From NCBI RefSeq assembly GCF_019059575.1, contig NW_024882309.1, forward strand, positions 270,096-334,095: a stretch of DNA of 64,000 nucleotides, in the 5' to 3' direction. The translations under genes and the position numbers were made by a program. Positions within the stretch are counted from its first letter, which is position 1, and every line of letters begins with the position of its first letter. This DNA is from Amphibalanus amphitrite (Eukaryota; Arthropoda; Thecostraca; Balanomorpha; Balanidae). The notes under the pieces are model-generated. The model was given only the letters and a program-made list of their open reading frames with translations, did no database searches and had not been told where the DNA came from. Shown here piece by piece: positions 6,157-57,657 of the stretch.

Positions 6157-6165
6157 TATAGGTAA
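6157..6165. repeat. 9-bp TSD (left) of foldback element 1
   Basis: TATAGGTAA directly precedes the terminus ATGTCCGTGAAG and recurs at 21628-21636 after the opposite terminus. Confidence 0.85.
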
Positions 6166-6310
6166 ATGTCCGTGAAGTTAGCGTCAGCAACAGCAACGAA
6201 TACAGCGTCGGATTCAGAATCGCTTAAAAAACCGCCATCAGGTTAATTTGGGGACGGGGAACACGAATATGACATTTATTTTGCCCTAGCTCCCTTCCTT
6301 CATCCCTTAA

Positions 6311-8610
6311 TCGTCCCTTAAAGGACGGGGCGCGTCAAAAGTGCCCCAAGGCTTCGTCTGATCGCCAAAATAATGGTCGCAATCGATTCCTCGGGTCAAT
6401 ATCTAACCTCAGTCGAAGGTTCCAGACCTGTGCCTCCTATCCTTCATCCCTTAATCGTCCCTTAAAGGACGGGGCGCGTCAAAAGTGCCCCAAGGCTTCG
6501 TCTGATCGCCAAAATAATGGTCGCAATCGATTCCTCGGGTCAATATCTAACCTCAGTCGAAGATTCCAGACCTGTGCCTCCTATCCTTCATCCCTTAATC
6601 GTCCCTTAAAGGACGGGGCGCGTCAAAAGTGCCCCAAGGCTTCGTCTGATCGCCAAAATAATGGTCGCACTCGATTCCTCGGGTCAATATCTAACCTCAG
6701 TCGAAGGTTCCAGACCTGTGCCTCCTATCCTTCATCCCTTAATCGTCCCTTAAAGGACGGGGCGCGTCAAAAGTGCCCCAAGGCTTCGTCTGATCGCCAA
6801 AATAATGGTCGCAATCGATTCCTCGGGTCAATATCTAACCTCAGACGAAGGTTCCAGACCTGTGCCTCCTATCCTTCATCCCTTAATCGTCCCTTAAAGG
6901 ACGGGGCGCGTCAAAAGTGCCCCAAGGCTTCGTCTGATCGCCAAAATAATGGTCGCAATCGATTCCCCGGGTCAATATTTAACCTCACTCGAAGGTTCCA
7001 GACCTGTGCCTCCTATCCTTCATCCCTTAATCGTCCCTTAAAGGACGGGGCGCGTCAAAAGTGCCCCAAGGCTTCGTCTGATCGCCAAAATAATGGTCGC
7101 AATCGATTCCTCGGGTCAATATCTAGCCTCAGTCGAAGGTTCCAGACCTGTGCCTCCTATTCTTCATCCCTTAATCGTCCCTTAAAGGACGGGGCGCGCC
7201 AAAAGAGCCCCAAGGCTTCGTCTGATCGCCAAAATAATGGTCGCAATCGATTCCTCGGGTCAATATCTAACCTCAGTCGAAGGTTCCAGACCTGTGCCTC
7301 CTATCCTTCATCCCTTAATCGTCCCTTAAAGGACGGGGCGCGTCAAAAGTGCCCCAAGGCTTCGTCTGATCGCCAAAATAATGGTCGCAATCGATTCCTC
7401 GGGTCAATATCTAACCTCAGTCAAAGGTTCCAGACCTGTGCCTCCTATCCTTCATCCCTTAATCGTCCCTTAAAGGACGGGGCGCGTCAAAAGTGCCCCA
7501 AGGCTTCGTCTGATCGCCAAAATAATGGTCGCAATCGATTCCTCGGGTCAATATCTAACCTCAGTCGAAGGTTCCAGACCTGTGGCTCCTATCCTTCATC
7601 CCTTAATCGTCCCATAAAGGACGGGGCGCGTCAAAAGTGCCTCAAGGCTTCGTCTGATCGCCAAAATAACGGTCGCAATCGATTCCTCGGGTCAATATCT
7701 AACCTCAGTCGAAGGTTCCAGACCTGTGCCTCCTATCCTTCATCCCTTAATCGTCCCTTAAAGGACGGGGCGCGTCAAAAGTGCCCCAAGGCTTCGTCTG
7801 ATCGCCAAAATAATGGTTGAAATCGATTCCTCGGGTCAATATCTAACCTCAGTCGAAGGTTCCAGACCTGTGCCTCCTATCCTTCATCCCTTAATCGTCC
7901 CTTAAAGGACGGGGCGCATCAAAAGTGCCTCAAGGCTTCGTCTGATCGCCAAAATAATGCTCGCAATCAATTCCTCGGGTCAATATCTAACCTCAGTCGA
8001 AGGTTCCAGACCTGTGCCTCCTATCCTTCATCCCTTAATCGTTCCTTAAAGGACGGGTCGCGTCAAAAGTGCCCCAAGGCTTCGTCTGATCGCCAAAATA
8101 ATGCTCGCAATCAATTCCTCGGGTCAATATCTAACCTCAGTCGAAGGTTCCAGACCTGTGCCTCCTATCCTTCATCCCTTAATCGTTCCTTAAAGGACGG
8201 GTCGCGTCAAAAGTGCCCCAAGGCTTCGTCTGATCGCCAAAAATATGGTCGCAATCGATTCCTCGGGTCAATATCTAACCTCAGTCGAAGGTTCCAGACC
8301 TGTGTCTCCTATCCTTCATCCCTTAATCGTCCCTTAATAGACAGGGCGCGTCAAAAGTGCCCCAAGGCTTCGTCTGATCGCCAAAATAATGGTCGCAATC
8401 GATTCCTCGGGTCAATATCTAACCTCAGTCGAAGGTTCCAGACCTGTGCCTCCTACCCTTCATCCCTTAATCGTCCCTTAAAGGACGGGGCGCGTCAAAA
8501 GTGCCCCAAGGCTTCGTCTAATCGCCAAAATAATGGTCGCAATCGATTCCTCGGGTCAATATCTAACCTCAGTCGTAGGTTCCAGACCTGTGTCTCCTAT
8601 CCTTCATCCC
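6311..8610 (+). repeat. 144-bp satellite, left arm part 1
   Basis: There are about 16 head-to-tail units, each containing TCGTCCCTTAAAGGACGGGG and CAATCGATTCCTCGGGTCAA. The spacing is exactly 144 bp (unit starts 6311, 6455, 6599). Because 144 is a multiple of three, any open frame stays open across many units, producing long spurious ORFs. The array is interrupted by the TTAA element at 8611. Confidence 0.95.
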
Positions 8611-9798
8611 TTAACCCGCGCCCAGATGGGGTCTGCCGAGCAATGCGGTCTGATGGGGGGGGGGCCATTTTGGCCCCCCCCTCAGATCTCGAGAACCACG
8701 CAACATAGCGACAAGCGGTAAACGGTGTTGGATAGCCCCAACGGGGAACTACCTTGTGACCCAATTTCATTGACCTCGGTCAAACCGATGACGTCACAGG
8801 TCAGGTCAAAGGTCGAATTTTCACCGTTTACAGGCATTTCAAGAAATGCGTTGTAAAATCGAGTAAAATGCATTTCATTGAAAATCATCGATGGGGAAAT
8901 GATCTTCAAACACATATTTTGCTATTTGAGGTCACTGATACCAGGTCAGGTCACAGAGGTCAGGTCACTGGGGGGGGGGGGGGTCACAATATGAAAGTGT
9001 CGTGTGATACATGTTTTATGGTCCATTTTACATGACAAATGCGATTATGTGGGTCAGACAGACTTAAGGGCCAGCTTAGATCACGTTTTGGTCAAGGTCA
9101 GGTCAAGGTCAGGTCAAGGTCAGGTCAAATTAGGTCAAATTTCAAACATGATATTTTTGCATAAAATGGGTATTGATTCGATGCCGCTCGTCACGGGGAG
9201 TTCAATGGTGGTCTCCGTTTTGCGCTACGAGGTCTAGAATTGCTAAAAATTGAGTTCAAAAATTTGACGTCATCAATTTTTAACAGTTTTTTCGCTATAA
9301 CTTGGCCAAAAAAGAGGTATCGATCTAAAATTTGGTGTGTATATCGAAGAGCGCAGGGACTATCACATATATTCCGTTTTTTTTCGAAATTCGAAAAAAA
9401 ATTGGAATTTTTTTGAGTTTTTCTAAAAAAAATCAATTTTTTTGATTTTTGGGGGTCACAATCCCAAAATTTCGAAAATCCGAGATGGCAGTTTTGTAGC
9501 GCCGTCTTTTCTTTACACAACCACATAAAGAACTTTAAAATTGCTTGTTAACTGTAGAATTGGTGAGCGTTTCAAGATGTCATGTTTTTTGCTCATTTTT
9601 ACTCGAACATGACCTAAGTTTGACCTCAATAACTCCTGACCTGAGGTGACCTGTGACTTGAAATTTTGTGTGAAGGTGTCAAATTGATGCCCGGTAAGGT
9701 ACCCAAAATTTGGCGGTGCTGCGCGCTGCCGTTTTCGCGCTATTTAAGAAAAACCACAGGGGGGGCCAAAATGGCCCCCCCATCAGGGCGCGGGTTAA
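8611..9798 (+). mobile_element. TTAA-flanked piggyBac-like MITE nested in the satellite
   Basis: The left end is TTAA-CCCGCGCCCAGATGGGG and the right end, in reverse complement, TTAA-CCCGCGCCCTGATGGGG. Removing the element and one TTAA restores CATCCC-TTAA-TCGTCCC, the intact satellite sequence. Subterminal palindromes of the form G-run/CCATTTTGG/C-run occur at both ends. The left end carries a second copy of the core (TCTGATGGGG near 8649). AGGTCA/TCAAGGTCA clusters lie at 9089-9145. It has no credible ORF. Confidence 0.92.
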
Positions 9799-11157
9799 TC
9801 GTCCCTTAAAGGACAGGGCGCGTCAAAAGTGCCCCAAGGCTTCGTCTGATCGCCAAAATAATGGTCGCAATCGATTCCTCGGGTCAATATCTAACCTCAG
9901 TCGAAGGTTCCAGACCTGTGCCTCCTATCCTTCATCCCTTAATCGTCCCTTAAAGGACGGGGCGCGTCAAAAGTGCCCCAAGGCTTCGTCTGATCGCCAA
10001 AATAATGGTCGCAATCGATTCCTCGGGTCAATATCTAACCTCAGTCGTAGGTTCCAGACCTGTGCCTCCTATCCTTCATCCCTTAATCGTCCCTTAAAGG
10101 ACGGGGCGCGTCAAAAGTGCCCCAAGGCTTCGTCTGATCGCCAAAATAATGGTCGCAATCGATTCCTCGGGTCAATATCTAACCTCAGTCGAAGGTTCCA
10201 GACCTGTGCCTCCTATCCTTCATCCCTTAATCGTCCCTTAAAGGACGGGGCGCGTCAAAAGTGCCTCAAGGCTTCGTCTGATCGCCAAAATAATGGTCGC
10301 AATCGATTCCTCGGGTCAATATCTAACCTCAGTCGAAGGTTCCAGACCTGTGCCTCCTATCCTTCATCCCTTAATCGTCCCTTAAAGGACGGGGCGCGTC
10401 AAAAGTGCCCCAAGGCTTCGTCTGATCGCCAAAATAATGGTCGCAATCGATTCCTCGGGTCAATATCTAACCACAGTCGAAGGTTCCAGACCTGTGCCTC
10501 CTATCCTTCATCCCTTAATCGTCCCTTAAAGGACGGGGCGCGTCAAAAGTGCCTCAAGGCTTCGTCTGATCGCCAAAATAACGGTCGCAATCGATTCCTC
10601 GGGTCAATATCTAACCTCAGTCGAAGGTTCCAGACCTGTGCCTCCTATCCTTCATCCCTTAATCGTCCCTTAAAGGACGGGGCGCGTCAAAAGTGCCCCA
10701 AGGCTTCGTCTGATCGCCAAAATAATGGTTGCAATCGATTCCTCGGGTCAATATCTAACCTCAGTCGAAGGTTCCAGACCTGTGCCTCCTATCCTTCATC
10801 CCTTAATCGTCCCTTAAAGGACGGGGCGCGTCAAAAGTGCCCCAAGGCTTCGTCTGATCGCCAAAATAATGGTCGCAATCGATTCCTCGGGTCAATATCT
10901 AACCTCAGTCGAAGGTTCCAGACCTGTGCCTCCTATCCTTCATCCCTTAATCGTCCTTTAAAGGACGGGGCGCGTCAAAAAAGTGCCCCAAGGGTTCGTC
11001 TGATCGCCAAAATAATGGTCGCAATCGATTCCTCGGGTCAATATCTAACCTCAGTCGAAGGTTCCAGACCTGTGCCTCCTATCATTCATCCCTTAATCGT
11101 CCCTTAAAGGACGGGGCGCGTCAAAAGTGCCCCAAGGCTTCGTCTGATCGCCAAAAT
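9799..11157 (+). repeat. 144-bp satellite, left arm part 2
   Basis: About 9.5 further units continue in the same orientation after the nested element. The 465-codon frame across 9710-11107 is an open repeat frame with a 48-residue period and starts inside the MITE. It is not annotated as a gene. The orientation flips at about 11158. Confidence 0.95.
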
Positions 11158-11166
11158 CAGACGTCC

Positions 11167-14100
11167 GCGACCAATATTTGGCGATCAGACGAAGTCTTGG
11201 GGCACTTTTGACGCGCACCGTCCTTTAAAGGACGATTAAGGGATGAAGGATAGGAGGCACAGGTCTGGAACCTTCGACTGAGGTTAGATATTGACCCGAG
11301 GAATCGATTGCGACAATTATTTTGGCGATCAGACGAAGCCTTGGGGCACTTTTGACTCGCCCCGTCCTTTAAGGGAGGATTAAGGGATGAAGGATAGGAG
11401 GCACAGGTCTGGAACCTTCGACTGAGGTTAGATATTGACCCGAGGAATCGATTGCGACCATTATTTTGGCGATCAGACGAAGCCTTGGGGCACTTTTGAC
11501 GCGCCCCGTCCATTAAGGGACGTTTAAGGGATGAAGGATAGGAGGCACGGGTCTGGAACCTTCGACTGAGGTTAGACATTGACCCGAGGAATCGATTGCG
11601 ACCATTATTTTGGCGATCAGACGAAGCCTTGGGGCACTTTTGACGCGCCCCGTCCTTTAAGGGACGATTAAGGGATGAAGGATAGGAGGCACAGGTCTGG
11701 AACCTTCGACTGAGGTTAGATATTGACCCGAGGAATCGATTGCGACCATTATTTTGGCGATCAGACGAAGCCTTGGGGCACTTTTGGCGCGCCCCGTCCT
11801 TTAAGGGACGATTAAGGGATGAAGGATAGGAGGCACAGGTCTGGAACCTTCGACTGAGGTTAGATATTGACCCGAGGAATCGATTGCGACCATTATTTTG
11901 GCGATCAGACGAAGCCTTGGGGCACTTTTGACGCGCCCCGTCCTTTAAGGGACGATTAAGGGATGAAGGATAGGAGGCACAGGTCTGGAACCTTCGACTG
12001 AGGTTAGATATTGACCCGAGGAATCGATTGCGACCATTATTTTGGCGATCAGACGAAGCCTTGGGGCACTTTTGGCGCGCCCCGTCCTTTAAGGGACGAT
12101 TAAGGGATGAAGGATAGGAGGCACAGGTCTGGAACCTTCGACTGAAGTTAGATATTGACCCGAGGAATCGATTGCGACCATTATTTTGGCGATCAGACGA
12201 AGCCTTGGGGCACTTTTGACGCGCCCCGTCCTTTAAGGGACGATTAAGGGATGAAGGATAGGAGGCACAGGTCTGGAACCTTCGACTGAGGTTAGATATT
12301 GACCCGAGGAATCGATTGCGACCATTATTGTGCCGATCAGACGAAGCCTTGGGGCACTTTTGACGCGCCCCGTCCTTTAAGGGACGATTAAGGGATGAAG
12401 GTTAGGAGGCACTGGTCTGGAACCTTCGACTGAGGTTAGATATTGACCCTAGGAATAGATTGCTACCATTATTTTGGCGATCAGACGAAGCCTTGGGGCA
12501 CTTTTGACGCGCCCCGTCCTTTAAGGGACAATTAAGGGATGAAGGATAGGAGGCACAGGTCTGGAACCTTCGACTGAGGTTAGATATTGACCCGAGGAAT
12601 CGATTGCGACCATTATTTTGGCGATCAGACGAAGCCTTGGGGCACTTTTGACTCGCCCCGTCCTTTAAGGGAGGATTAAGGGATGAAGGATAGGAGGCAC
12701 AGGTCTGGAACCTTCGACTGAGGTTAGATATTGACCCGAGGAATCGATTGCGACCATTATTTTGGCGATCAGACGAAGCCTTGGGGCACTTTTGACGCGC
12801 CCCGTCCATTAAGGGACGTTTAAGGGATGAAGGATAGGAGGCACGGGTCTGGAACCTTCGACTGAGGTTAGACATTGACCCGAGGAATCGATTGCGACCA
12901 TTATTTTGGCGATCAGACGAAGCCTTGGGGCACTTTTGACGCGCCCCGTCCTTTAAGGGACGATTAAGGGATGAAGGATAGGAGGCACAGGTCTGGAACC
13001 TTCGACTGAGGTTAGATATTGACCCGAGGAATCGATTGCGACCATTATTTTGGCGATCAGACGAAGCCTTGGGGCACTTTTGGCGCGCCCCGTCCTTTAA
13101 GGGACGATTAAGGGATGAAGGATAGGAGGCACAGGTCTGGAACCTTCGACTGAGGTTAGATATTGACCCGAGGAATCGATTGCGACCATTATTTTGGCGA
13201 TCAGACGAAGCCTTGGGGCACTTTTGACGCGCCCCGTCCTTTAAGGGACGATTAAGGGATGAAGGATAGGAGGCACAGGTCTGGAACCTTCGACTGAGGT
13301 TAGATATTGACCCGAGGAATCGATTGCGACCATTATTTTGGCGATCAGACGAAGCCTTGGGGCACTTTTGGCGCGCCCCGTCCTTTAAGGGACGATTAAG
13401 GGATGAAGGATAGGAGGCACAGGTCTGGAACCTTCGACTGAGGTTAGATATTGACCCGAGGAATCGATTGCGACCATTATTTTGGCGATCAGACGAAGCC
13501 TTGGGGCACTTTTGACGCGCCCCGTCCTTTAAGGGACGATTAAGGGATGAAGGATAGGAGGCACAGGTCTGGAACCTTCGACTGAGGTTAGATATTGACC
13601 CGAGGAATCGATTGCGACCATTATTGTGCCGATCAGACGAAGCCTTGGGGCACTTTTGACGCGCCCCGTCCTTTAAGGGACGATTAAGGGATGAAGGTTA
13701 GGAGGCACTGGTCTGGAACCTTCGACTGAGGTTAGATATTGACCCTAGGAATAGATTGCTACCATTATTTTGGCGATCAGACGAAGCCTTGGGGCACTTT
13801 TGACGCGCCCCGTCCTTTAAGGGACAATTAAGGGATGAAGGATAGGAGGCACAGGTCTGGAACCTTCGACTGAGGTTAGATATTGACCCGAGGAATCGAT
13901 TGCGACCATTATTTTGGCGATCAGACGAAGCCTTGGGGCACTTTTGACTCGCCCCGTCCTTTAAGGGAGGATTAAGGGATGAAGGATAGGAGGCACAGGT
14001 CTGGAACCTTCGACTGAGGTTAGATATTGACCCGAGGAATCGATTGCGACCATTATTTTGGCGATCAGACGAAGCCTTGGGGCACTTTTGACGCGCCCCG

Positions 14101-17100
14101 TCCATTAAGGGACGTTTAAGGGATGAAGGATAGGAGGCACGGGTCTGGAACCTTCGACTGAGGTTAGACATTGACCCGAGGAATCGATTGCGACCATTAT
14201 TTTGGCGATCAGACGAAGCCTTGGGGCACTTTTGACGCGCCCCGTCCTTTAAGGGACGATTAAGGGATGAAGGATAGGAGGCACAGGTCTGGAACCTTCG
14301 ACTGAGGTTAGATATTGACCCGAGGAATCGATTGCGACCATTATTTTGGCGATCAGACGAAGCCTTGGGGCACTTTTGGCGCGCCCCGTCCTTTAAGGGA
14401 CGATTAAGGGATGAAGGATAGGAGGCACAGGTCTGGAACCTTCGACTGAGGTTAGATATTGACCCGAGGAATCGATTGCGACCATTATTTTGGCGATCAG
14501 ACGAAGCCTTGGGGCACTTTTGACGCGCCCCGTCCTTTAAGGGACGATTAAGGGATGAAGGATAGGAGGCACAGGTCTGGAACCTTCGACTGAGGTTAGA
14601 TATTGACCCGAGGAATCGATTGCGACCATTATTTTGGCGATCAGACGAAGCCTTGGGGCACTTTTGGCGCGCCCCGTCCTTTAAGGGACGATTAAGGGAT
14701 GAAGGATAGGAGGCACAGGTCTGGAACCTTCGACTGAGGTTAGATATTGACCCGAGGAATCGATTGCGACCATTATTTTGGCGATCAGACGAAGCCTTGG
14801 GGCACTTTTGACGCGCCCCGTCCTTTAAGGGACGATTAAGGGATGAAGGATAGGAGGCACAGGTCTGGAACCTTCGACTGAGGTTAGATATTGACCCGAG
14901 GAATCGATTGCGACCATTATTGTGCGATCAGACGAAGCCTTGGGGCACTTTTGACGCGCCCCGTCCTTTAAGGGACGATTAAGGGATGAAGGTTAGGAGG
15001 CACTGGTCTGGAACCTTCGACTGAGGTTAGATATTGACCCTAGGAATAGATTGCTACCATTATTTTGGCGATCAGACGAAGCCTTGGGGCACTTTTGACG
15101 CGCCCCGTCCTTTAAGGGACAATTAAGGGATGAAGGATAGGAGGCACAGGTCTGGAACCTTCGACTGAGGTTAGATATTGACCCGAGGAATCGATTGCGA
15201 CCATTATTTTGGCAATCAGACGAAGCCTTGGGGCACTTTTGACGCGCCCCGTCCTTTAAGGGACGATTAAGGGATGAAGGATAGGAGGCACAGGTCTGGA
15301 ACCTTCGACTGAGGTTAGATATTGACCCGAGGAATCGATTGCGACCATTATTTTGGCGATCAGACGAAGCCTTGGGGCACTTTTGACGCGCCCCGTCCTT
15401 TAAGGGACGATTAAGGGATGAAGGATAGGAGGCACAGGTCTGGAATCTTCGACTGAGGTTAGATATTGACCCGAGAAATCGATTGCGACCATTATTTTGG
15501 CGATCAGACGAAGCCTTGGGGCACTTTTGACGCGCCCCGTCCTTTAAGGGACGATTAAGGGATGAAGGATAGGAGGCACAGGTCTGGAACCTTCGACTGA
15601 GGTTAGATATTGACCCTAGGAATCGATTGCTACCATTATTTTGGCGATCAGACGAAGCCTTGGGGCACTTTTAACGCGCCCCGTCCTTTAAGGGACGATT
15701 AAGGGATGAAGGATAGGAGGCAGAGGTCTGGAACCTTCGACTGAGGTTAGATATTGACCCGAGGAATCGATTGCGACCATTATTTTGGCGATCAGACGAA
15801 GCCTTGGGGCACTTTTGACGCGCCCCGTCCTTTAAGGGACGATTAAGGGATGAAGGATAGGAGGCACAGGTCTGGAACCTTCGACTGAGGTTAGATATTG
15901 ACCCGAGGAATCGATTGCGACCATTATTTTGGCGATCAGACGAAGCCTTGGGGCACTTTTGACGCGCCCCGTCCTTTAAGGGACGATTAAGGGATGAAGG
16001 ATAGGAGGCACAGGTCTGGAAGCTTCGACCGAGGTTAGATATTGACCCGAGGAATCGATTGCGACCATTATTTTGGCGATCAGACGAAGCCTTGGGGCAC
16101 TTTTGACGCGCCCCGTCCTTTAAGGGACGATTAAGGGATGAAGGATAGGAGGCACAGGTCTGGAACCTTCGACTGAGGTTAGATATTGACCCGAGGAATC
16201 GATTGCGACCATTATTTTGGCGATCAGACGAAGCCTTGGGGCACTTTTGACGCGCCCTGTCCTTTAAGGGACGATTAAGGGATGAAGGATAGGAGGCACA
16301 GGTCTGGAACCTTCGACTGAGGTTAGATATTGACCCGAGGAATCGATTGCGACCATTATTTTGGCGATCAGACGAAGCCTTGGGGCACTTTTGACGCGCC
16401 CCGTCCTTTAAGGGACGATTAAGGGATTAAGGATAGGAGGCACAGGTCTGGAACCTTCGACTGAGGTTAGATATTGACCCGAGGAATCGATTGCTACCAT
16501 TATTTTGGCGATCAGACGAAGCCTTGGGGCACTTTTGACGCGCCCCGTCCTTTAAGGGACGATTAAGGGATGAAGGATAGGAGGCACAGGTCTGGAATCT
16601 TCGACTGAGGTTAGATATTGACCCGCGGAATCGATTGCGACCATTATTTTGGCAATCAGACGAAGCCTTGGGGCACTTTTGACGCGCCCCGTCCTTTAAG
16701 GGACGATTAAAGGATGAAGGATAGGAGGCACAGGTCTGGAACCTTCGACTGAGCCTAGATATTGACCCGAGGAATCGATTGCGACCATTATTTTGGCGAT
16801 CAGACGAAGCCTTGGGGCACTTTTGACGCGCCCCGTCCTTTAAGGGACGATTAAGGGATGAAGGATAGGAGGCACAGGTCTGGAACCTTCGACTGAGGTT
16901 AGATATTGACCCGAGGAATCGATCGCGACCATTATTTTGGCGATCAGACGAAACCTTGGGGCCTTTTTGACGCGCCCCGTCCTTTAAGGGACGATTAAGG
17001 GATGAAGGTTAGGAGGCACAGGTCTGGAACCTTCGACTGAGGTTAGATGTTGACCCGAGGAATCGATTGCGACCATTATTTTGGCGATCAGACGAAGCCT

Positions 17101-19863
17101 TGGGGCACTTTTGACGCGCCCCGTCCTTTAAGGGACGATTAAGGGATGAAGGATAGGAGGCACAGGTCTGGAACCTTCGACTGAGGTTAGATATTGACCC
17201 GAGGAATCGATTGCGACCATTATTTTGGCGATCAGACGAAGCCTTGGGGCACTTTTGGCGCGCCCCGTCCTTTAAGGGACGATTAAGGGATGAAGGATAG
17301 GAGGCACAGGTCTGGAACCTTCGACTGAGGTTAGATATTGACCCGAGGAATCGATTGCGACCATTATTTTGGCGATCAGACGAAGCCTTGGGGCACTTTT
17401 GACGCGCCCCGTCCTTTAAGGGACGATTAAGGGATGAAAGATAGGAGGCACAGGTCTGGAACCTTCGACTGAGGTTAGATATTGACCCGAGGAATCGATT
17501 GCGACCATTATTGTGCCGATCAGACGAAGCCTTGGGGCACTTTTGACGCGCCCCGTCCTTTAAGGGACGATTAAGGGATGAAGGTTAGGAGGCACAGGTC
17601 TGGAACCTTCGACTGAGGTTAGATATTGACCCTAGGAATAGATTGCTACCATTATTTTGGCGATCAGACGAAGCCTTGGGGCACTTTTGACGCGCCCCGT
17701 CCTTTAAGGGACAATTAAGGGATGAAGGATAGGAGGCACAGGTCTGGAACCTTCGACTGAGGTTAGATATTGACCCGAGGAATCGATTGCGACCATTATT
17801 TTGGCAATCAGACGAAGCCTTGGGGCACTTTTGACGCGCCCCGTCCTTTAAGGGACGATTAAGGGATGAAGGATAGGAGGCACAGGTCTGGAACCTTCGA
17901 CTGAGGTTAGATATTGACCCGAGGAATCGATTGCGACCATTATTTTGGCGATCAGACGAAGCCTTGGGGCACTTTTGACGCGCCCCGTCCTTTAAGGGAC
18001 GATTAAGGGATGAAGGATAGGAGGCACAGGTCTGGAATCTTCGACTGAGGTTAGATATTGACCCGAGGAATCGATTGCGACCATTATTTTGGCGATCAGA
18101 CGAAGCCTTGGGGCACTTTTGACGCGCCCCGTCCTTTAAGGGACGATTAAGGGATGAAGGATAGGAGGCACAGGTCTGGAACCTTCGACTGAGGTTAGAT
18201 ATTGACCCTAGGAATCGATTGCTACCATTATTTTGGCGATCAGACGAAGCCTTGGGGCACTTTTAACGCGCCCCGTCCTTTAAGGGACGATTAAGGGATG
18301 AAGGATAGGAGGCACAGGTCTGGAACCTTTGACTGAGGTTAGATATTGACCCGAGGAATCGATTGCGACCATTATTTTGGCGATCAGACGAAGCCTTGGG
18401 GCACTTTTGACGCGCCCCGTCCTTTAAGGGACTATTAAGGGATGAAGGATAGGAGGCACAGGTCTGGAACCTTCGACTGAGGTTAGATATTGACCCGAGG
18501 AATCGATTGCGACCATTATTTTGGCGATCAGACGAAGCCTTGGGGCACTTTTGACGCGCCCCGTCCTTTAAGGGACGATTAAGGGATGAAGGATAGGAGG
18601 CACAGGTCTGGAATCTTCGACCGGGGTTAGATATTGACCCGAGGAATCGATTGCGACCATTATTTTGGCGATCAGACGAAGCCTTGGGGCACTTTTGACG
18701 CGCCCCGTCCTTTAAGGGACGATTAAGGGATGAAGGATAGGAGGCACAGGTCTGGAACCTTCGACTGAGGTTAGATATTGACCCGAGGAATCGATTGCGA
18801 CCATTATTTTGGCGATCAGACGAAGCCTTGGGGCACTTTTGACGCGCCCCGTCCTTTAAGGGACGATTAAGGGATGAAGGATAGGAGGCACAGGTCTGGA
18901 ACCTTCGACTGAGGTTAGATATTGACCCGAGGAATCGATTGCGACCATTATTTTGGCGATCAGACGAAGCCTTGGGGCACTTTTGACGCGCCCCGTCCTT
19001 TAAGGGACGATTAAGGGATTAAGGATAGGAGGCACAGGTCTGGAACCTTCGACTGAGGTTAGATATTGACCCGAGGAATCGATTGCTACCATTATTTTGG
19101 CGATCAGACGAAGCCTTGGGGCACTTTTGACGCGCCCCGTCCTTTAAGGGACGATTAAGGGATGAAGGATAGGAGGCACAGGTCTGGAATCTTCGACTGA
19201 GGTTAGATATTGACCCGCGGAATCGATTGCGACCATTATTTTGGCAATCAGACGAAGCCTTGGGGCACTTTTGACGCGCCCCGTCCTTTAAGGGACGATT
19301 AAGGGATGAAGGATAGGAGGCACAGGTCTGGAACCTTCGACTGAGGTTAGATATTGACCCGAGGAATCGATTGCGACCATTATTTTGGCGATCAGACGAA
19401 GCCTTGGGGCACTTTTGACGCGCCCCGTCCTTTAAGGGACGATTAAGGGATGAAGGATAGGAGGCACAGGTCTGGAACCTTCGACTGAGGTTAGATATTG
19501 ACCCGAGGAATCGATCGCGACCATTATTTTGGCGATCAGACGAAGCCTTGGGGCACTTTTGACGCGCCCCGTCCTTTAAGGGACGATTAAGGGATGAAGG
19601 TTAGGAGGCACAGGTCTGGAACCTTCGACTGAGGTTAGATGTTGACCCGAGGAATCGATTGCGACCATTATTTTGGCGATCAGACGAAGCCTTGGGGCAT
19701 TTTTGACGCGCCCCGTCCTTTAAGGGACGATTAAGGGATGAAGGATAGGAGGCACAGGTCTGGAATCTTCGACTGAGGTTAGATATTGACCCGCGGAATC
19801 GATTGCGACCATTATTTTGGCAATCAGACGAAGCCTTGGGGCACTTTTGACGCGCCCCGTCCT
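11167..19863 (-). repeat. 144-bp satellite, right arm, with higher-order repeats
   Basis: About 60 units run in the reverse orientation. Variant markers recur at multiples of 144 bp. CCCTAGGAATAGATTGC starts near 12445+, 13741+ and 15036+ (9 units, 1296 bp, one with a 1-bp deletion) and again 2592 bp (18 units) further at 17628+. GAATCGATCGCGACC near 16920 and 19512 is also 2592 bp apart. Such higher-order repeats indicate block amplification by unequal exchange. Confidence 0.95.
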
Positions 19864-21043
19864 TTAACCCGCGCGGCGCTGGGGTCTCCAGCCGAACGCG
19901 CGGGGCTGGGGGGGGGTAAATTTTACCCCCCCTGTTATCTCCCGAACTAATGGTCCGATTTGGAAAATTCAAACGCCAATCGAAAGCTCTTATCACGAAC
20001 TACTAAAAACATGTACTTAATTTAAAGTTTGAGGTCAAGGTCAAGGTCAGGTCAAGGGTACAAATTGCTAGTTTCTACAGTATCGGCCTTGCACCGTAGT
20101 TGCCGAAGAATGGAGTCATGGACTGAGACTGATCGCCCAAAACGTGTTCTTAGGCTACCAAGACAATATTCGTTGCATACAATATCATTCAGAGGTCAAG
20201 GTCAAGGTCAGGTCAGGTCAGGTCAGGTCACCAAAAAACAAAATATAGAAAAGGGCATGTGCGACACATGTTTTATGGGTCATTTTACTCATAGAATTCA
20301 ATAGGCACACTCAATAAGTGATATGGACCACCTCTGGATGAATTTCAGGTCGAGGTCAGGTCAAGGTCAGGTCAAGTGAGGTCAAATTTTGAAGTTGGTT
20401 GTTAAGGCCTAAAAAGGTGTCTATCTGATGCAGTTTTTCACGGCAAATCGAATGGTGCTATTTTTGTTTCCGTACGAGGTCTAGAACTTCAAAAAAAGTC
20501 ATTTTTCAAAAAATTTGTGTGTCGTGACGTCATAAAATTTTGAATAACTCCCACATTTTTGAACCGATTCTTCTAAAATTTGGTATGTATGTGCACATAG
20601 ACAACTTCTCTGACATATATTCCGGTTTTTTCGATAGACTCAAAATTTTGGATTTTATAATGATTTTCCCAAAAAAGTCAGTTTTTTGAAAAACTTTAGG
20701 CCAAAATCCAAAATTTTCAAAAAACCGAGATAGCCATTTAATAGACAAAGTAAAATTACGTATAAACTTTTTTGTTACGTCTTGATTCCTTTAAAAATGA
20801 AGATGTTAGCGGCGTTTGAACTTTTGCCGTTTTTGAGGCGAAAATGGCGAACATGACGTCACTAAAACGTCAATTTCTCAAAAATTTTCCGACGGATTTC
20901 GCTGAAATTTTCAGGGAACGTGTCAAATTGATGTAAGAAAAGGTACTGAAAGTTTGGCGGCGCTGCGCGCCGCCGTTTCTGAGATATCGCAAAAATTCGC
21001 GAGGGGGGGTAAAATTTACCCCCCCCAGCCCCGCGCGGGTTAA
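19864..21043 (+). mobile_element. TTAA-flanked piggyBac-like MITE nested in the satellite
   Basis: The ends are TTAA-CCCGCGCGGCGCTGGGG and, in reverse complement, TTAA-CCCGCGCGGGGCTGGGG. Excision with one TTAA restores CGTCCT-TTAA-GGGACGA of the satellite. Both ends carry a G-run/TAAATTTTA/C-run palindrome. A second copy of the core (GCGCGGGGCTGGGG near 19899) follows the left TIR. Dense AGGTCA clusters lie at 20029-20055, 20191-20232 and 20346-20385. ORFs inside are unconvincing. Confidence 0.92.
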
Positions 21044-21490
21044 GGGACGATTAAAGGATGAAGGATAGGAGGCACAGGTCTGGAACCTTCGACTGAGCCT
21101 AGATATTGACCCGAGGAATCGATTGCGACCATTATTTTGGCGATCAGACGAAGCCTTGGGGCACTTTTGACGCGCCCCGTCCTTTAAGGGACGATTAAGG
21201 GATGAAGGATAGGAGGCACAGGTCTGGAACCTTCGACTGAGGTTAGATATTGACCCGAGGAATCGATCGCGACCATTATTTTGGCGATCAGACGAAGCCT
21301 TGGGGCACTTTTGACGCGCCCCGTCCTTTAAGGGACGATTAAGGGATGAAGGTTAGGAGGCACAGGTCTGGAACCTTCGACTGAGGTTAGATGTTGACCC
21401 GAGGAATCGATTGCGACCATTATTTTGGCGATCAGACGAAGCCTTGGGGCATTTTTGACGCGCCCCGTCCTTTAAGGGACGATTAAGGGA
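21044..21490 (-). repeat. 144-bp satellite, right arm end
   Basis: About three units follow the nested element. They pass into the unique arm end (21491-21627), which mirrors 6166-6310 in reverse complement. Confidence 0.92.
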
Positions 21491-21627
21491 TGAAGGAAGG
21501 GAGTTAGGGCAAAATAAATGTCATATTCGTGTTCCCCGTCCCCAAATTGACCTGATGGCGGTTTTTGAAGCGATTCTGAATCCGTTGCTGTATTCGTTGC
21601 TGTTGCTGACGCTAACTTCACGGACAT

Positions 21628-21636
21628 TATAGGTAA
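21628..21636. repeat. 9-bp TSD (right) of foldback element 1
   Basis: TATAGGTAA, identical to 6157-6165. Confidence 0.85.
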
Positions 21637-22725
21637 CATACCTAGTTGTGTGGCGGCGGGAGAGAGTAGGTACACACACCGACCTCTGGAGACCCCCCAC
21701 AGGTTCCGAACTTTCAAAATTGGCATCTGAGGGCCGCGCGCGACTCCTGCGGGGCTTCGCAACGGCTCTATTGGGGCTCACTCAACCTGCCTAGTCTTAC
21801 TGCTAAAAAGACTGGCCCTGAGCCCTAAGGACTTCATCAGTCTCTGCCAGCCCCAGGACCCACACCGGCTCATGGGGTCCCGACGTCGAAATATGAGGGA
21901 ATCTGCGCCGGACCATCAGGACGTAAAGTAATCTCGATCAGGACCAACGTAAGGCTGTGCCGGAGACTGCGTGAGCCCTGTGATCTTCAGAAACCCACCC
22001 ATGTATGTTTTCACATAGAGGCCAGTTTAGGGTCCTCAGAGACCAGTACAGGGCCTGCAAACTACAAAGGCCAGTAGTTTGAGACAATCAGTGACCGAGT
22101 TGGGCTCTCAGAGGCTAATGTGGGTCATTACAGGCCAACATGGGCCCTCAGAGGTCAGCGTGGGGCCCTAAAAGACCGGCATGAGCCGTCGTTGGACCCC
22201 AGAGGCCAGCAGAGGGCCCTCAAAGGCCAAGATGGGCCCTCCTCAGAGGCCAATGCAGGCCCTTAAAGGCCGGCGTCGGGTCTTCAGCAGCCAGTGCGGG
22301 GCCCTCATTGGCACCTAAAGGTTCGTCTTGGGACACCACAGACAGAAATAAGGCCACCAGAGACCGGTGTGAGATCCTCAGACGCCGGTTGGGACCCCTG
22401 AGGCCGGTTAGGGGCCCTCATAGGCCAGATGTGGGGTCTCAGAGGTTGATGTAGGCTCTTAGCGGCCAACGTGGGCGCTTGACCGCCACTGAAGTTCCCT
22501 CAGAGGTCAGTGTAGGACGCTCAAAGACCGGTGTGGGAGCTATATTAATAGCTGGGCGTGGGTTTTTTGAGCCTCGTGATGATCGAATAATTGCCAGGGC
22601 CCCATACACCTATATGGGGGCCCATTGGTTGTTTGAGGGGGGGGGGCAAATTATATGATGGCCCCCTTTATTGACCTTTGGGGGGCATGGCCCTGATGCC
22701 CCCCCCCCCCCCGCGACCGCCACTG
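21637..22725. repeat. Degenerate GGCCCTCAGAGGCCAG minisatellite and hAT-like end
   Basis: From about 22010 to 22540 the phrase GGGCCCTCAGAGGCCAGTG recurs in degenerate form at irregular 25-45 bp spacing. The block closes with a G/C-run stretch and CGCGACCGCCACTG at 22725, in reverse complement CAGTGGCGGTCGCGGGG. That resembles a hAT terminus. The other terminus was not found, so element identity is uncertain. Confidence 0.5.
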
Positions 22726-23298
22726 TGTACACATTACACACATGCCTCTGAGATTACATACTAGCTCATGCAAACTCTATGCAGGCCCCGGAGTTCCCAC
22801 GCTAATCCTTAAGAAACCAAGCCGGCATACGGCGTCACCACCGGGCTTCTGAGGTACACAGCACCAACCCATGAGGTCTTACTTTAGTGTCTTAGAGCCA
22901 ATCTCCTTTAGCAGGGCCCACCCACCACTGCCGAAGAGGGTCTCATGCCAGCCATTGTTGGGCCTACGAGAGCCTCAAGTAAACCCACGCTGATATTCCA
23001 TATAAGATCCGGCCATACTCGTGAACCAGTGCCAGCGACGCTGACCGCCAAATTGACAGAATGCGAAACTGAGCCCACCCATGAGTGAAATTTACGTCCT
23101 TTGATGGCGCAAGAAAGAAAATGAAACATACGAAAAGCTTTTCTAGGACTTTTGTTCGATCTGAAAGGTGGGGCCAAAAGATAGTATGGCCCCACCTTTC
23201 AGCACCAAAGGGGGGGCCATGGCCCCCGTGCCCCCCCCCCCCCCCTGGGACCGCCAGTGTTCCTGACTCATATGTCACTAGAAGCGCACGCTAAACTG
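22726..23298. other. Spacer with a second hAT-like end
   Basis: No convincing gene is seen. A palindromic segment GGTGGGGCCAAAAG...GGCCCCACC (about 23167-23199) and long C-runs are followed by GGGACCGCCAGTG near 23259. That is another CASTGGCGGTC-type end without a visible partner. Confidence 0.4.
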
Positions 23299-23307
23299 CC
23301 TTATGCC
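23299..23307. repeat. 9-bp TSD (left) of foldback element 2
   Basis: CCTTATGCC precedes ATGTCCGTCAAG and recurs exactly at 27572-27580. Confidence 0.9.
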
Positions 23308-23334
23308 ATGTCCGTCAAGACAGCCCATATTCAG

Positions 23335-26112
23335 CCCAGATTCGGGACACCTCCGATCAAGCTGAAACTCGCACACAATGTAGGCCATGACATGCCCAAT
23401 CCACAGTCCGAGTCATTTGGCGGCACTCCCAGCCGTTTGACCTACAGAGGTCAGCAAAGGTCACGTGGCCCAAATTTGCACAGCAGATTGTGGCCCACCC
23501 AGTAGAGCTAGAGCGCTAAAAATGGCACCAATCGACTCGCCAGCATCTAATCTTACTTTCCCAAAACTCATTTGACCTCTCAAGGTCATGCGATGACCTA
23601 GGGTCATTTGTGGGCTATGTCGAAAATACACTTGCACAGCAGTTTTCGAGTAGAGGAATTGACCGAATTCCAAATCAAAGCACATCATCGGGTAGCCCAT
23701 AGGCCGTAATAACTTTCCTTAAAAATCGCTTCTCGATGTGTGACCCCGTTTGGCCTCAGCATGTCAAAAGGTACAAATAAACGACACTCGATACGTCGCA
23801 GCCCGGATTCAGCCCAGATTCGGGACATCTCCGATCAAGGTGAAACTCGCACACGATGTAGGTCCTGACATGCCCAATCCACATTCCGAGTCATTCGGCG
23901 GCACTCCCAGCCGTTTGACCTACAGATGTCAGCAAAGGTCACGTGGCCCAAATTTGCACAGCAGATTGTGGCCCACCCAGTAGAGCTAGAGCGCTTAAAA
24001 TGGCACCAATCGACTCGTCAGCATCTAATCTTACTTTCCCAACACTCATTTGACCTCTCAACGTCATGCGATGACCTAAGGTCATTTGTGGGCTATGTCG
24101 AAAATACACTTGCAGAGCAGTATTCGAGTAGAGGGATTGACCGAATTCCAAATCAAAGCACATCATCGGGTAGCCCATGGCCCGTAGAAACTTTCCTTAA
24201 AAACCGCTTCTCGATATGTGACCCCTTTTGACCTCGGCAGGTCAAAAGGTACAAATAAACGACACTCCATACGTCGCAGCCCGGATTCAGCCCAGATTCG
24301 GGACATCTCCGGGCAAGGTGAAACTCGCACACGATGTAGGTCCTGACATGCCCAATCCACATTCCGAGTCATTCGGCGGCACTCCCAGCCGTTTGACCTA
24401 CAGAGGTCAGCAAAGGTCACGTGGCCCAAATTTGCACAGCAGATTGTGGCCCACCCAGTAGAGCTAGAGCGCTTAAAATGGCACCAATCGACTCGTCAGC
24501 ATCTAATCTTACTTTCCCAACACTCATTTGACCTCTCAACGTCATGCGATGACCTAAGGTCATTTGTGGGCTATGTCGAAAATACACTTGCACAGCAGTT
24601 TTCGAGTAGAGGAATTGACCGAATTCCAAATAAAAGCACATCATCAAGTAGCCCATAGGCCGTAGTAACTTTCCTTAAAAACCGCTTCTCGATATGTGAC
24701 CCCGTTTGACCTCGGCAGGTCAAAATGTACAAATAAACGACACTCCATACGTCGCAGCCCGGATTCAGCCCAGATTCGGGACATCTCGTATCAAGCTGAA
24801 ACTCGCACACGATGTAGGTACTGACATGCCCAATCCACAGTCCGAGTCATTCGGCGGCACTCCCAGCCGTTTGACCTACAGAGGTCAGCAAAGGTCACGT
24901 GGCCCAAATTTGCACAGCAGATTGTGACCCACCCAGAAGAGCTAGAGCGCTAAAAATGGCACCAATCGACTCTCCAGCATCTAATCTTACTTTCCCAAAA
25001 CTCATTTGACCTCTCAAGGTCATGCGATGACCTAGGGTCATTTGTGGGCTATGTCGAAAATACACTTGCACAGCAGTTTTCGAGTAGAGGAATTGACCGA
25101 ATTCCAAATTAAAGCACATCATCGGGTAGCCCATAGCCCGTAGTAACTTTCCTTAAAAATCCCTTCTCGATGTGTGACCCCGTTTGACCTCGGCAGGTCA
25201 AAAGGTACAAATAAACGACACTCCATACCTACGTCGCAGCCCGGATTCAGCCCAGATTCGGGACATCTCCGATCAAGCTGAAACTCGCACACAATGTAGG
25301 TCCTGACATGCCCAATCCACAGTCCGAGTCATTTGGCGGCACTCCCAGCCGTTTGACCTACAGAGGTCAGCAAAGGTCACGTGGCCCAAATTTGCACAGC
25401 AGATTGTGGCCCACCCAGTAGAGCTAGAGCGCTAAAAATGGCACCACTCGACTCGCCAGCATCTAATCTTACTTTCCCAAAACTCATTTGACCTCTCAAG
25501 GTCATGCGATGACCTAGGGTCATTTGTGGGCTATGTCGAAAATACACTTGCACAGCAGTTTTCGAGTATAGGAATTGACCGAATTCCAAATCAAAGCACA
25601 TCATCGGGTAGCCCATAGGCCGTAGTAACTTTTCTTAAAAATCGCTTCTCGATGTGTGACCCCGTTTGACCTCGGCAGGTCAAAAGGTACAAATGAACGA
25701 CACTCGATACGTCGCAGCCCGGATTCAGCCCAGATTCGGGACATCTCCGATCAAGGTGAAACTCGCACACGATGTAGGTCCTGACATGCCCAATCCACAT
25801 TCCGAGTCATTCGGTGGCACTCCCAGCCGTTTGACCTACAGAGGTCAGCAAAGGTCACGTGGCCCAAATTTGCACAGCAGATTGTGGCCCACCCAGTAGA
25901 GCTAGAGCGCTTAAAATGGCACCAATCGACTCGTCAGCATCTAATCTTACTTTCCCAACACTCATTTGACCTCTCATCTTCATGCGATGACCTAAGGTCA
26001 TTTGTGGGCTATGTCGAAAATACACTTGCACAGCAGTTTTCGAGTAGAGGAATTGACCGAATTCCAAATCAAAGCACATCATCGGGTAGCCCATAGGCCG
26101 AAGTAACTTTCC
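23335..26112 (+). repeat. 478-bp tandem array
   Basis: The phrase CGGGACATCTCCGATCAAG starts near 23343, 23821, 24299, 24777, 25259 and 25737. Steps are 478 bp, apart from one of 482 bp caused by a duplicated CTAC. Each unit holds three TGACCT-N4-AGGTCA everted half-site pairs (for example 23438-23453). Repeated 77-79 codon frames on both strands are by-products of the array. Confidence 0.95.
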
Positions 26113-27146
26113 TTAACCCGCGCACCGACGGGGGGGGGCGGATATCCGCCCCCCCCCCCCTGAGGTTTTTCGCGAATAGCGGGAAAACCGCGGCGCGAAA
26201 TTTAGTACGACTATTCCCTCATCAATTTTACACATGGTGTGCAAGTTTGAACCTCCTAACTTTAAAGGTCAGGTCACCAGGTCACTTTGAATGACCCAAC
26301 CACTTCAAAGTGACTTGGGTCACTTTGAATGACCCAAGTCACTTTTTTGCAACTTTGTCACCGTGCCAGAGCTACAGTAGATGTCGGAGGCCTTTGAAAG
26401 TCGCAGGGTGTTATAAGGTCATTAGTAGCTACAATTTGTATATCTCGGAATTTCGATATCGGTGACCTAAGGTCAGGTCAATTTCGCGACCTCCCCATTA
26501 TAAGTCAATGGGGGAAAAATCAACTCCCTATTTTTACCACTAAAACGGGTCGGAATGGCCCCATATACCATACATGACTTCATATACGATCAACCTTCAC
26601 TACCTTGAGGTCTGTTTTGCTGTTGGGCAGCTGTGAGGTCATGTGACGTCATCAAAGGTCACCAAAGGTTTTTGGCCAATAACTCCGTACAGGAACAAGA
26701 TACAGCCGCGTGGATGGTCTCATTGTGTTCCGCTCGTCAAGACGCATCGAATGATATACATGATGACCTCGAGGTCACGTGACCTGAGGTCAACCTTTGA
26801 CCTTGACCTTTCGAGGTCAACATATATATCATTCGATGCGGATTGACGAGAGAATCACGATGATGCCCTTAGTTTGCTCCTATCTTGACTAATTCGCACG
26901 TTATTCGAGAAAAACTCTCCATATCTAGCGCCGCCATTTTGAATTTTTCGACCCCTGTGACGTCATCTTTGACCTGACCTGAAAATGACCTTTGTAAAAA
27001 TTGTAGATCTTGACCGTGCGTATCCGATGCCGTTTACCGCTTGTCGCTATCTTGCTTCGTTCTCGAGATCTCAGGGGGGGGGGCGGTCATCCGCCCCCTC
27101 CCGTCGGTGCGAAGTTGGCGCAGACCCCCGTCGGTGCGCGGGTTAA
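26113..27146 (-). mobile_element. TTAA-flanked piggyBac-like MITE nested in the 478-bp array
   Basis: The TIRs are perfectly matched over 18 bp: CCCGCGCACCGACGGGGG at the left and its reverse complement at the right. Excision with one TTAA restores CTTTCC-TTAA-AAACCGC, the intact unit sequence. A second core copy (CCCGTCGGTGC near 27101-27111) lies inside the right end. The left subterminal palindrome is G-run/CGGATATCCG/C-run. AGGTCA sites are frequent and an internal inverted pair containing CATTCGATGCG lies at 26739-26850. Confidence 0.93.
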
Positions 27147-27571
27147 AAACCGCTTCTCGATATGGGACCCCGTTTGACCTCGGCAGGTCAAAATGTACAA
27201 ATAAACGACACTCCATACGTCGCAGCACGGATTCAAATGACAAATGACAAATGACCTTAGGTCATCGCATGACCTTGAGGGGTCAAATGGGTAATGGGAA
27301 AGTAAGATAAGATGCTGGCGAGTCGATTGGTGCCATTTTAGCGCTCTAGCTCTACTGGGTGGCCCACAATCTGCTGTGCAAATTTGGGCCACGTGACTTT
27401 TGCTGACCTCTGTAGGTCAAACGGCTGGGAGTGCCGCCGAATGACTTGTACTGTGGATTGGGCATGTCATGGCCTACATTGTGTGCGAGTTTCAGCTTGA
27501 TCGGAGGTGTCCCGAATCTGGGCTGAATCCGGGCTGAATCTGGGCTGAATATGGTCTGTCTTGACGGACAT
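27147..27571 (-). repeat. Inverted arm of foldback element 2
   Basis: A short piece in the forward orientation (27147-27235) resumes the interrupted unit. From about 27250 the 478-bp sequence runs in reverse complement, down to a tripled GGGCTGAAT(C/A) stretch and the terminus CTTGACGGACAT. Confidence 0.85.
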
Positions 27572-27580
27572 CCTTATGCC
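27572..27580. repeat. 9-bp TSD (right) of foldback element 2
   Basis: CCTTATGCC, identical to 23299-23307. Confidence 0.9.
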
Positions 27581-29556: not shown

Positions 29557-29647
29557 TACTGACGGGAGAGTGACGGGAGAGCTGGAACAGACGAACACAC
29601 GGCGACGCGTCGTTACGGGCCGAAACACCTGCACCTCAGCAATAGGA
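29557..29647 (-). promoter_or_regulatory. Short leader with possible 3' splice site
   Basis: Only 91 bp separate the RING start codon from the TTAA element. On the minus strand TTCGTCTGTTCCAG ends at 29582, a plausible acceptor. The ATG exon may therefore be preceded by an intron containing the transposable element and a GC-rich first exon further upstream. Confidence 0.35.
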
Positions 29648-30196
29648 TTAACCTTCGCCCCAGTGGGGGGGGGGGCATATGTTACCACCCTGTCGCGTTT
29701 TTTGCGTGTAAATAAAAAACCGCGGCGCGTAGCGCCGCGCCGCTTGGGGTAGCTTTTGGTACATCAATTTTGGACAATGTGTGAAATTTTTGACCCCAGG
29801 TCATGCCAGGTCAGGTCACCAGGTCAAGTTAACTGACCAAGCCCAAAAAAAAGTTTGCAATCATGTCCAGCCTGCAGTGTTTGTCGGAAAGGTTTTAAAC
29901 TTGGTGGATTGCATGATGTTATGGGCGCCTACAATTTGTATATCTCGGGTTTTTTATATCCGTGACCTAAGGTCAGGTCAGTGGCGTGACCTTTCCATTA
30001 CAAGTCAATGGATAGAAAATGAAAATGCCTGTAGATCCGTGTGTACGCATAGGAACAGTCCAAATATTTCAGAATCACAATGATTTGGACCACCCGTGAT
30101 GACCAAGGTGTCATTTTTGCTGATAGCCTCTAGAAAGGTCATCCGAGGTCATTTGAGGCTACAAACAGATTTTTGCCAATAACTCGAGATTGGGAA

Positions 30197-49520: not shown

Positions 49521-49714
49521 ACGGGGAGTTTTCGTTGGAGTTGTGTGAGGCGATTTTAGGTAAATGGTTGGTCAAAAATTGTTATGTTGGCGCAGTAGTT
49601 TTCTGGATGTTTTGCGTTGAATTAAGTGTTTGTGCATGTCGTGTGATTTGCATATATGTACATACCCGTGACATTGTAACTGGCCATTGTTAGGTATACA
49701 TATTAGAAGCCACC

Positions 49715-56646: not shown

Positions 56647-57657
56647 TTCACCCGCGCCGTGTTGGTGGCATGAACTTTCCGTCGAGTGCTGAGGGGGGGG
56701 GGGGGGGGGGAGGCGTTTCACGCCCCTCCGTCTAACTCGGCTCCTGGGCCACGTAGCGACACGCGGTAAACGGCAATCGAAAAAGCGTCAAAAATAAGAA
56801 GGAAAACACTCGGTCATTTTAAGGTCAGGGCAAAGGTCAGGTCACCAGAGCTCATCAAAGGCCAAATTTTGTCGATTTCAACGATTTTAAACATCCGACG
56901 GCTAACTCTGGAACCAATAGAGCTACAGCGCCGTGTAAAAGCGCATTCGATAGTTCTTTTAACGCTCTTTCGCCAACATGCCCTCAAATTTGACCTCAGA
57001 TCAACGGTTTAGCCCCCAGAGGGCACCGCTCTGATTGACCTCAAATTTGACCACAGATCAACGGTTTAGCCCCCGTGTTTTCACCGCTCTAGCACGTCTC
57101 TGTCAAATCAAAAGTTATAGTAAAAAAAACTGCTGAAGACCTTTCATGACCTGAGATGACCTCAGGGGCACACAAAGGGGGCACAGGTGCAATTTTCCGA
57201 TTCAGAGTGTCATGTTTACATATGAACCGATGTTTGAGAGGGTGTAGAACGACATTCGGCCAAAAGAGGCTCATTTCAATTTCCTCCCATTGACTTACCT
57301 ATATGGAGCAGCCGCAAAATTGACCTGACCTTAGGTCACAACTCATAGATATAAAAAAATCCGAGATATCTATTTTATACATACTGTTACCCTAAGCAAG
57401 TACTGAAAGTTTCAAAGTGATCGCTCAGTCGGTGTAGCTACAGCGAGCTTTCTAACTTTTTCTGAGGTAAGGTCACTTGACGTTACATGGTGACCTGACC
57501 TTGAATGACCGGGATCAGAAATTTTCATAGCATGTGCGAAAAAGATGTCGGAACGGGTGTATCTAAAACAGCGGCGCTACACGTCGCCATTTTTGAGATA
57601 TTCGCGAAAAACCTAGGGGGCGTAAAAACGCCCCCCCCCCCCAGGACGGCGCGGATC
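56647..57657 (+). mobile_element. TTAA-family MITE, diverged, with TTCA left flank
   Basis: The left end is TTCA-CCCGCGCCGT and the right end GACGGCGCGG-ATCAA, so flanks and TIRs have drifted. Palindromic G-run/GGCGTTTCACGCC and GGGGGCGTAAAAACGCCCCC lie near the ends. The interior is close to 46101-47285 (CACGTAGCGACACGCGGTAAACGGC). Confidence 0.7.

Follow-up and report, generated by a model that had tools for sequence, protein, structure and literature searches.

In the genome of the barnacle Amphibalanus amphitrite, a stretch of 64,000 nt (contig NW_024882309.1, positions 270,096 to 334,095 of the forward strand; the whole stretch is referred to below as the window) carries two long insertions, element 1 and element 2 (W1 and W2), that end in the same sequence, ATGTCCGTSAAG, and are built of different tandem repeats. 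How does one end come to bound two unrelated satellites? The initial annotation of the window proposed a portable end that captures and spreads satellites. We analysed both insertions and their relatives elsewhere in the genome (designated by L-numbers, which stand for elements or for single ends). As described below, they are very probably non-autonomous foldback DNA transposons that are mobilised in trans and whose satellites evolve inside the elements and spread with them.

Two elements with a common end

In the whole window, ATGTCCGTSAAG has two plus-strand occurrences, at 6166 and 23308, and two as its reverse complement, at 21616-21627 and 27560-27571. Both elements are flanked by perfect 9-bp target-site duplications (TSDs). 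For element 1, which is 15,462 bp long, the duplication is TATAGGTAA (6157-6165 and 21628-21636, the only plus-strand occurrences in the window; one further copy is present on the minus strand at 57295), and for the 4,264-bp element 2 it is CCTTATGCC (23299-23307 and 27572-27580, again the only plus-strand occurrences). The common end and the TSDs had been annotated exactly to the base.

Element 1 starts with a terminal domain that begins with ATGTCCGTGAAGTTAGCG and belongs to class A of the three classes described below (6166-6290, plus strand). It is followed by a left arm of forward 144-bp repeats (6290-11157), a centre at which the orientation of the repeats flips (11158-11166), a right arm of reverse repeats (11167-21497, minus strand) and a right terminal domain of the same class (21498-21627, minus strand). 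Each arm is broken by a nested, TTAA-flanked element with CCCGCGC...GCGCGGG ends, located at 8615-9794 in the left arm and at 19868-21039 in the right one. The arms are inverted relative to each other over 2,325 nt with 97-98% identity.

Element 2 has class B termini, ATGTCCGTCAAG on the left (23308-23319, plus strand) and its counterpart on the right (27560-27571, minus strand). The left arm (23321-27235, plus strand) contains ca. 5.8 forward copies of a 478-bp repeat up to position 26116, where another TTAA-flanked element with CCCGCGC...GCGCGGG ends is inserted (26117-27142), and picks up again at 27143. The right arm (27247-27559, minus strand) is less than one inverted copy of the repeat and matches the inverted left repeat over 291 nt only (95% identity). 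Thus, the inverted arms that had been ascribed to both elements are present in element 1, while element 2 is strongly lopsided and lacks two full arms. The two periods, 144 and 478 bp, were recovered by Tandem Repeats Finder, and the repeats are unrelated to each other, as annotated: clear matches between the elements are confined to their non-repeat inserts, and the others are short, with E values of at least 0.055.

A dispersed family of inverted ends

The genome assembly (807,550,619 bp in 2,644 contigs) was searched for further ends. Since the terminal 12-mer was found 426 + 428 times and its reversed control 300 + 280 times, the 12-mer by itself is unspecific. Longer, class-specific end words were found 387 (class A), 186 (class B) and 135 (class C) times, and their reversed controls were not found at all. 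The ends are of the inverted ATGTCCGT type. Among the first 100 listed ends, 31 of 33 adjacent pairs less than 40 kb apart run plus then minus; in 2,000 shuffles of the strands, such pairs averaged 8.3 and never exceeded 18. The S letter is identical between the two ends in all 31 pairs. The same arrangement was seen in 97 of 103 pairs among 293 listed ends of the 387 in class A. The inverted pairing of ends is therefore not due to chance, and the predicted family of dispersed foldback DNA transposons, which have common ends and carry different tandem repeats, is borne out across the genome.

The 31 genomic pairs (one without its central 13 kb) were fetched and studied together with the two window elements. 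By terminus and repeat unit, these 33 elements fall into three classes: A (20 elements, 144-bp unit), B (5 elements, 478-bp unit) and C (8 elements, unit based on 143 bp). Perfect 9-bp TSDs flank 28 of the 33 elements (26 of the 31 genomic ones), without an evident target consensus; the expected association of inverted ends with 9-bp duplications holds in most of the elements read. A single mismatch is found in the TSD of L043+44 and, if the true left end 148 bp upstream is taken, in that of L031+32. Two of the elements, L017 and L018 (C16:1592843-1597618 and 1931221-1935996), are one insertion with its flanks, present as an inverted duplicate ca. 334 kb apart on the same contig, either through a haplotype join or through true duplication. 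Since they represent one insertion, the independent perfect TSDs number 27 of 32 (25 of 30 for genomic elements only).

The existence of such a duplicate demonstrates that false or haplotypic duplications are present, and one could argue that the elements as a whole are assembly artefacts, i.e., satellite arrays that were collapsed or falsely inverted. We regard this as extremely improbable, because neither perfect 9-bp TSDs in varied flanks, seen in 26 of the 31 genomic elements, nor centres common to elements at different loci (see below) are expected from mis-assembly. The foldback family is large and real, and apparently recent.

The internal anatomy of the elements is simple. When compared to class libraries, every unmatched stretch is shorter than 80 bp in 24 of the 33 elements (five of these 24 supplied the libraries, and L035+36 was judged on its sequenced parts only). 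The unmatched stretches of W1 (two), W2, L015, L024 and L037+38 (one of two) have TTAA flanks and CCC...GGG ends, in which they resemble piggyBac-type miniature inverted-repeat transposable elements. The non-repeat interiors of both window elements are later nested insertions. Other unmatched stretches, in L020, L023, L037+38 (the second one), L041+42 and L043+44 (two), are without TTAA flanks. Full units switch once from plus to minus in 30 of the 33 elements, and the full units of W2, L022 and L025 are too few to reveal one. In 29 of 33 elements, the outer 120 bp of both ends reach an alignment score of 0.95 or higher; W2, L019, L020 and L022 score lower. In most copies read, the body consists of inverted satellite arrays and nothing else; long inverted arms of tandem repeats and 9-bp TSDs are the hallmarks of foldback elements.

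Units are ca. 0.96 identical within arms and 0.947-0.961 identical between the arms of one element. Class A has two unit subtypes, A1 and A2, which are ca. 83% alike and have one terminus. Between elements, unit identity is 0.945-0.957 for A2, B and C; for A1 it is 0.884 when divergent short elements are part of the set and 0.944 in a stricter extraction of seven A1 elements.

Origin and turnover of the satellites

Is the satellite of these elements also present outside of them? In the 20 class A elements read, a 19-base word from the A unit was counted 634 times, or 31.7 times in each, and 387/2 elements should accordingly hold ca. 6,100 copies. The genome contains 2,941 + 3,092 = 6,033 (none for the reversed control). 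The prediction is rough, since the mean rests on exact-ended pairs and double-counts one duplicated locus. All 100 listed places of the word, on C2 and C4, are located inward of listed A ends. In class A, the class that this test covers, the 144-bp satellite seems to be confined to the elements, and because there is no sign of its existence outside them, it looks made within the elements rather than captured.

The portable-end proposal holds that one terminal sequence repeatedly took up unrelated pre-existing satellites and now disperses them. It draws on the fact that classes A and B agree in 11 of 12 terminal bases and in the length of the TSD, and in nothing beyond: past the 12-bp end, class B has no detectable similarity to A or C. 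In addition, one class B element (C2:182387-183610; L049, L001) has ATGTCCGTCAAG as one terminus and the different GATGTTGATCAAG as the other, between perfect 9-bp TSDs; GATGTTGATCAAG, the second B terminus, is found at 39 ends genome-wide. However, the terminus past base 12 and the unit are class-specific, and no mixed-class element was found among the 33. Moreover, the termini of A and C align with a score of 42 (maximum of 23 in 300 shuffles) and their units align weakly (31, maximum of 28 in shuffles). Since the termini are alignable and the unit lengths similar (144 and 143 bp), A and C look diverged from one ancestor, and divergence suffices to explain them. Finally, the count of the A satellite leaves little room for it outside the elements, and no donor array was seen for this class. 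We thus consider the portable end, in the form in which it was proposed, unlikely; it is in class B that capture or replacement could have taken place.

Two further relations of the repeats were tested. For Tetris, the repeat unit has been proposed to derive from the terminal domain; such a derivation is unsupported here: comparisons within classes gave p = 0.29 and 0.12, and those across classes p = 0.023 and 0.032, which is weak. A motif common to the A and B units was not significant (p = 0.47).

The phase of the switch from plus to minus was compared in 31 elements (L025 and L022 were left out), and 26 distinct centre junctions were found. Common centres are present in W1, L012 and L047+48; in L013 and L014; in L030 and L035+36 (in opposite orientation); and in the duplicate L017 and L018. 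Windows of 300 bp score 92-97% in the W1 group, 99.7% in L013/L014 and 98.7% in L030/L035+36, compared to 62% and 54% in two control pairs. Despite their common centre, the elements of the W1 group have arms of different length: 5.0 and 10.5 kb in W1 (including the two nested inserts), 2.9 and 3.5 kb in L012, and 4.4 and 8.7 kb in L047+48. Arm lengths also differ within L013/L014 and L030/L035+36. Where units can be counted, arms of centre-sharing copies vary by whole units. Units that lie 9 or 18 apart in the right arm of W1, or 14 apart in the left arm of L045+46, have raised identity. As to the junctions themselves (n = 31), 8 have an overlap of 1-3 bp and 20 a filler of 2-32 bp, with three outliers (0, 49, and 15 bp overlap). 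Junctions with overlap or filler fit breaks that removed the former middle.

Some copies have become parts of larger units. The sequence AAACAAGTAAGTATT adjoins 61 ATGTCCGTGAAG ends, which form 26 inverted pairs on 25 contigs (for example, at C7:481454-482535 and C9:1727974), or ca. 30 dispersed copies. Both composites that were read, L013 and L014, are of class A; the class A body is the centre of a bigger palindrome that has itself dispersed. Since 19 of the 24 composite copies shorter than 3 kb share a 13-bp band modulo 144, most of them differ by whole 144-bp units. At the other extreme, a 47-bp copy at C261:64953-64999 (L060) has two 22-bp arms between two copies of CCATTTGGG, with six additional bases on its left side. 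This ends-only copy with its 9-bp duplication shows that the ends can outlast the loss of all repeats.

Taken together, these results suggest the following scheme. The ends would be recognised by a transposase supplied in trans, most probably one from the Mutator/Rehavkus group, which would insert the elements with a 9-bp stagger. Arms would change in length by unequal exchange, slippage or repair inside the array, including duplication of multi-unit blocks. Breaks or aborted gap repair would delete across the middle and create a new centre, which is suggested by the many different junctions with short overlap or filler. As such deletions reset the centre, only the ends would stay constant, and with arms and centres turning over between constant ends, the satellite of each lineage would evolve in the element and spread with it. 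Classes A and C would then be old sister lineages, and class B would be either much older or one whose body has been replaced. A bolder version, tentative and in our view doubtful, is that only the end and the palindromic layout are conserved, and that the satellite between them is remade continually and, over long times, swapped whole, as in class B, under the same transposase.

The origin and scatter of satellites is an old question, and here one family offers many separate insertions of the same satellites. Since ends, TSDs and centres act as landmarks, gain and loss of units and resetting of the centre can be measured copy by copy. What is striking is that the elements are reduced to ends and inverted satellite, that the latter is apparently confined to them and that the turnover of arms and centres can be read from the copies. 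Essentially all copies of one satellite appear to reside in a transposon, which seems both to produce satellite DNA and to disperse it. Under the bolder version given above, the family would be a factory of new satellites that are confined to a mobile unit, and its output would include palindromic composites spreading with foreign flanks.

Mobilisation and related systems

Profile searches for a transposase yielded 111 matches to PF10551 (Mutator-like elements, MULEs), with 150 of 204 candidates scored, and 7 matches to PF20700 at 4 loci. A Mutator-like gene with the same termini, for which a search had been suggested, was not found by comparing the PF10551 matches with the listed A, B and C ends and the PF20700 matches with the listed A ends. 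Since no transposase was found, the superfamily assignment is inferred from TSD length and architecture only. TSDs of Mutator elements and MULEs are given as 8-11 bp (PMC6446971), a range that includes the 9 bp seen here. The elements most likely form a new foldback family, non-autonomous and mobilised by a transposase of the Mutator/Rehavkus type.

Several observations weigh against satellites evolving inside trans-mobilised elements. No transposase with the ends of the family was found, in searches that did not include PHD-finger, Rehavkus, P or Merlin proteins. Of the 387 A ends, the 293 that were listed have no PF10551 or PF20700 match within 30 kb. Among the listed B and C elements (100 ends of the 186 in B and 100 of the 135 in C), none contains a PF10551 match, and the one near match lies 6.1 kb outside a B element. 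An exact partner within 40 kb is missing for 22 of 100 listed ends each in classes A and C and for 70 of 100 in class B, and the second B terminus accounts for only part of the unpartnered B ends. A lone class A end (L002/L059), followed inward, is a truncated element enclosing other DNA, ca. 5 kb of which is non-repeat; six-frame stop-to-stop translation revealed no long frame in it and only an apparent further insertion. In L013, L014 and L016, inverted flanks (at least 99-100 bp in L013/L014 and 76 bp in L016) take the place of the TSD, and simple insertion does not account for every copy. At C111:789381-803532 (L061-L063), two class A elements abut with 0 bases between them and no outer TSD. 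Finally, centre phases were read mechanically off BLAST edges.

A PF20700 Mutator-like gene in two pieces ca. 2.6 kb apart, with another long frame just downstream, is located at C6:1028444-1033632 (L056). This best PF20700 locus was rejected as the source gene: no 14-base word of the A or B terminus was found at 0-1 mismatch in the locus together with ca. 10 kb upstream and 6 kb downstream (one at 2 mismatches, several at 3), arrays of any class are absent, and its two candidate inverted repeats have no 9-bp TSD by eye. In the window, a 569-aa open frame at 49694-51403, by eye possibly a transposase, has no Pfam match above cut-off (one weak match, DUF2046). The minus strand next to element 2 (27994-29763) contains a 589-aa frame with CCCH and RING zinc fingers, and a separate tandem array at 41098-43975, with periods of 249 and 444 bp and TACA/CATA runs, is without the ATGTCCGTSAAG end.

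One may ask whether the elements could instead belong to the P superfamily, as the foldback element Galileo does, or be of the Merlin type. Galileo makes 7-bp TSDs, against 9 bp in the barnacle family; its terminal inverted repeats (TIRs) are long and internally repetitive. Merlin elements have 8-9-bp TSDs and internal tandem repeats, and their termini start with 5'-GG (PMC8101967), whereas those of the barnacle family start with ATG. Both assignments appear improbable.

No description of the barnacle family was found in the open-access literature, judged by titles and the start of abstracts, and the two terminal 12-mers occur in four open-access papers, none of them on transposons, judged by titles. 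The family itself is most likely new, but the kind of element is known from Tetris (8-10-bp TSD) and Rehavkus (9-bp TSD), both with satellite arrays in inverted termini. The FB/NOF elements of Drosophila also have inverted arms of tandem repeats, a 9-bp TSD and, in NOF, a Mutator-type transposase; their arm repeats are much shorter and their termini different.

The main text of a paper on arthropod MULEs (PMC13359780) contains no words beginning with foldback, tandem repeat or satellite. In plants, MULEs with tandem TIRs carry several terminal units and retain transposition but have few tandem TIRs and no long satellites (PMC3310237). Tm1 of root-knot nematodes comprises several non-autonomous groups and has a Phantom-type MULE transposase; its TIRs are composite, the number of tandem repeats in them varies, and its TSDs are mostly 9 bp long. 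Unlike the barnacle family, it has 13-15-bp repeats, asymmetric 7-bp end motifs and named elements of 1,080 and 2,593 bp (PMC3169594).

Rehavkus elements are related to MULEs and have arthropod and annelid hosts. Rehavkus-1_TC of Tribolium has a 9-bp TSD and a 164-bp satellite, TCsat23, arrayed in its inverted termini (PMC6446971, PMC10218199), a combination of satellite arrays in inverted termini and 9-bp TSD that is found in the barnacle as well. However, it is 9.5 kb long with mostly 5 or 8 consecutive monomers, and Rehavkus transposases have a PHD finger (same sources), whereas the barnacle arms reach dozens of units, and the elements show no coding part and combine one end with three satellite classes. 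Tetris of Drosophila virilis is also a non-coding foldback element, with an outer terminal domain followed by ca. 220-bp tandem repeats, an 8-10-bp TSD, an array that grows inside the element and a transposase that was not found (PMC4079207). In contrast to the barnacle family, Tetris keeps internal and middle domains and has a single satellite, which is also present on contigs without the terminal domain (PMC4079207); the barnacle elements have no middle domain, and their class A satellite is apparently confined to them.

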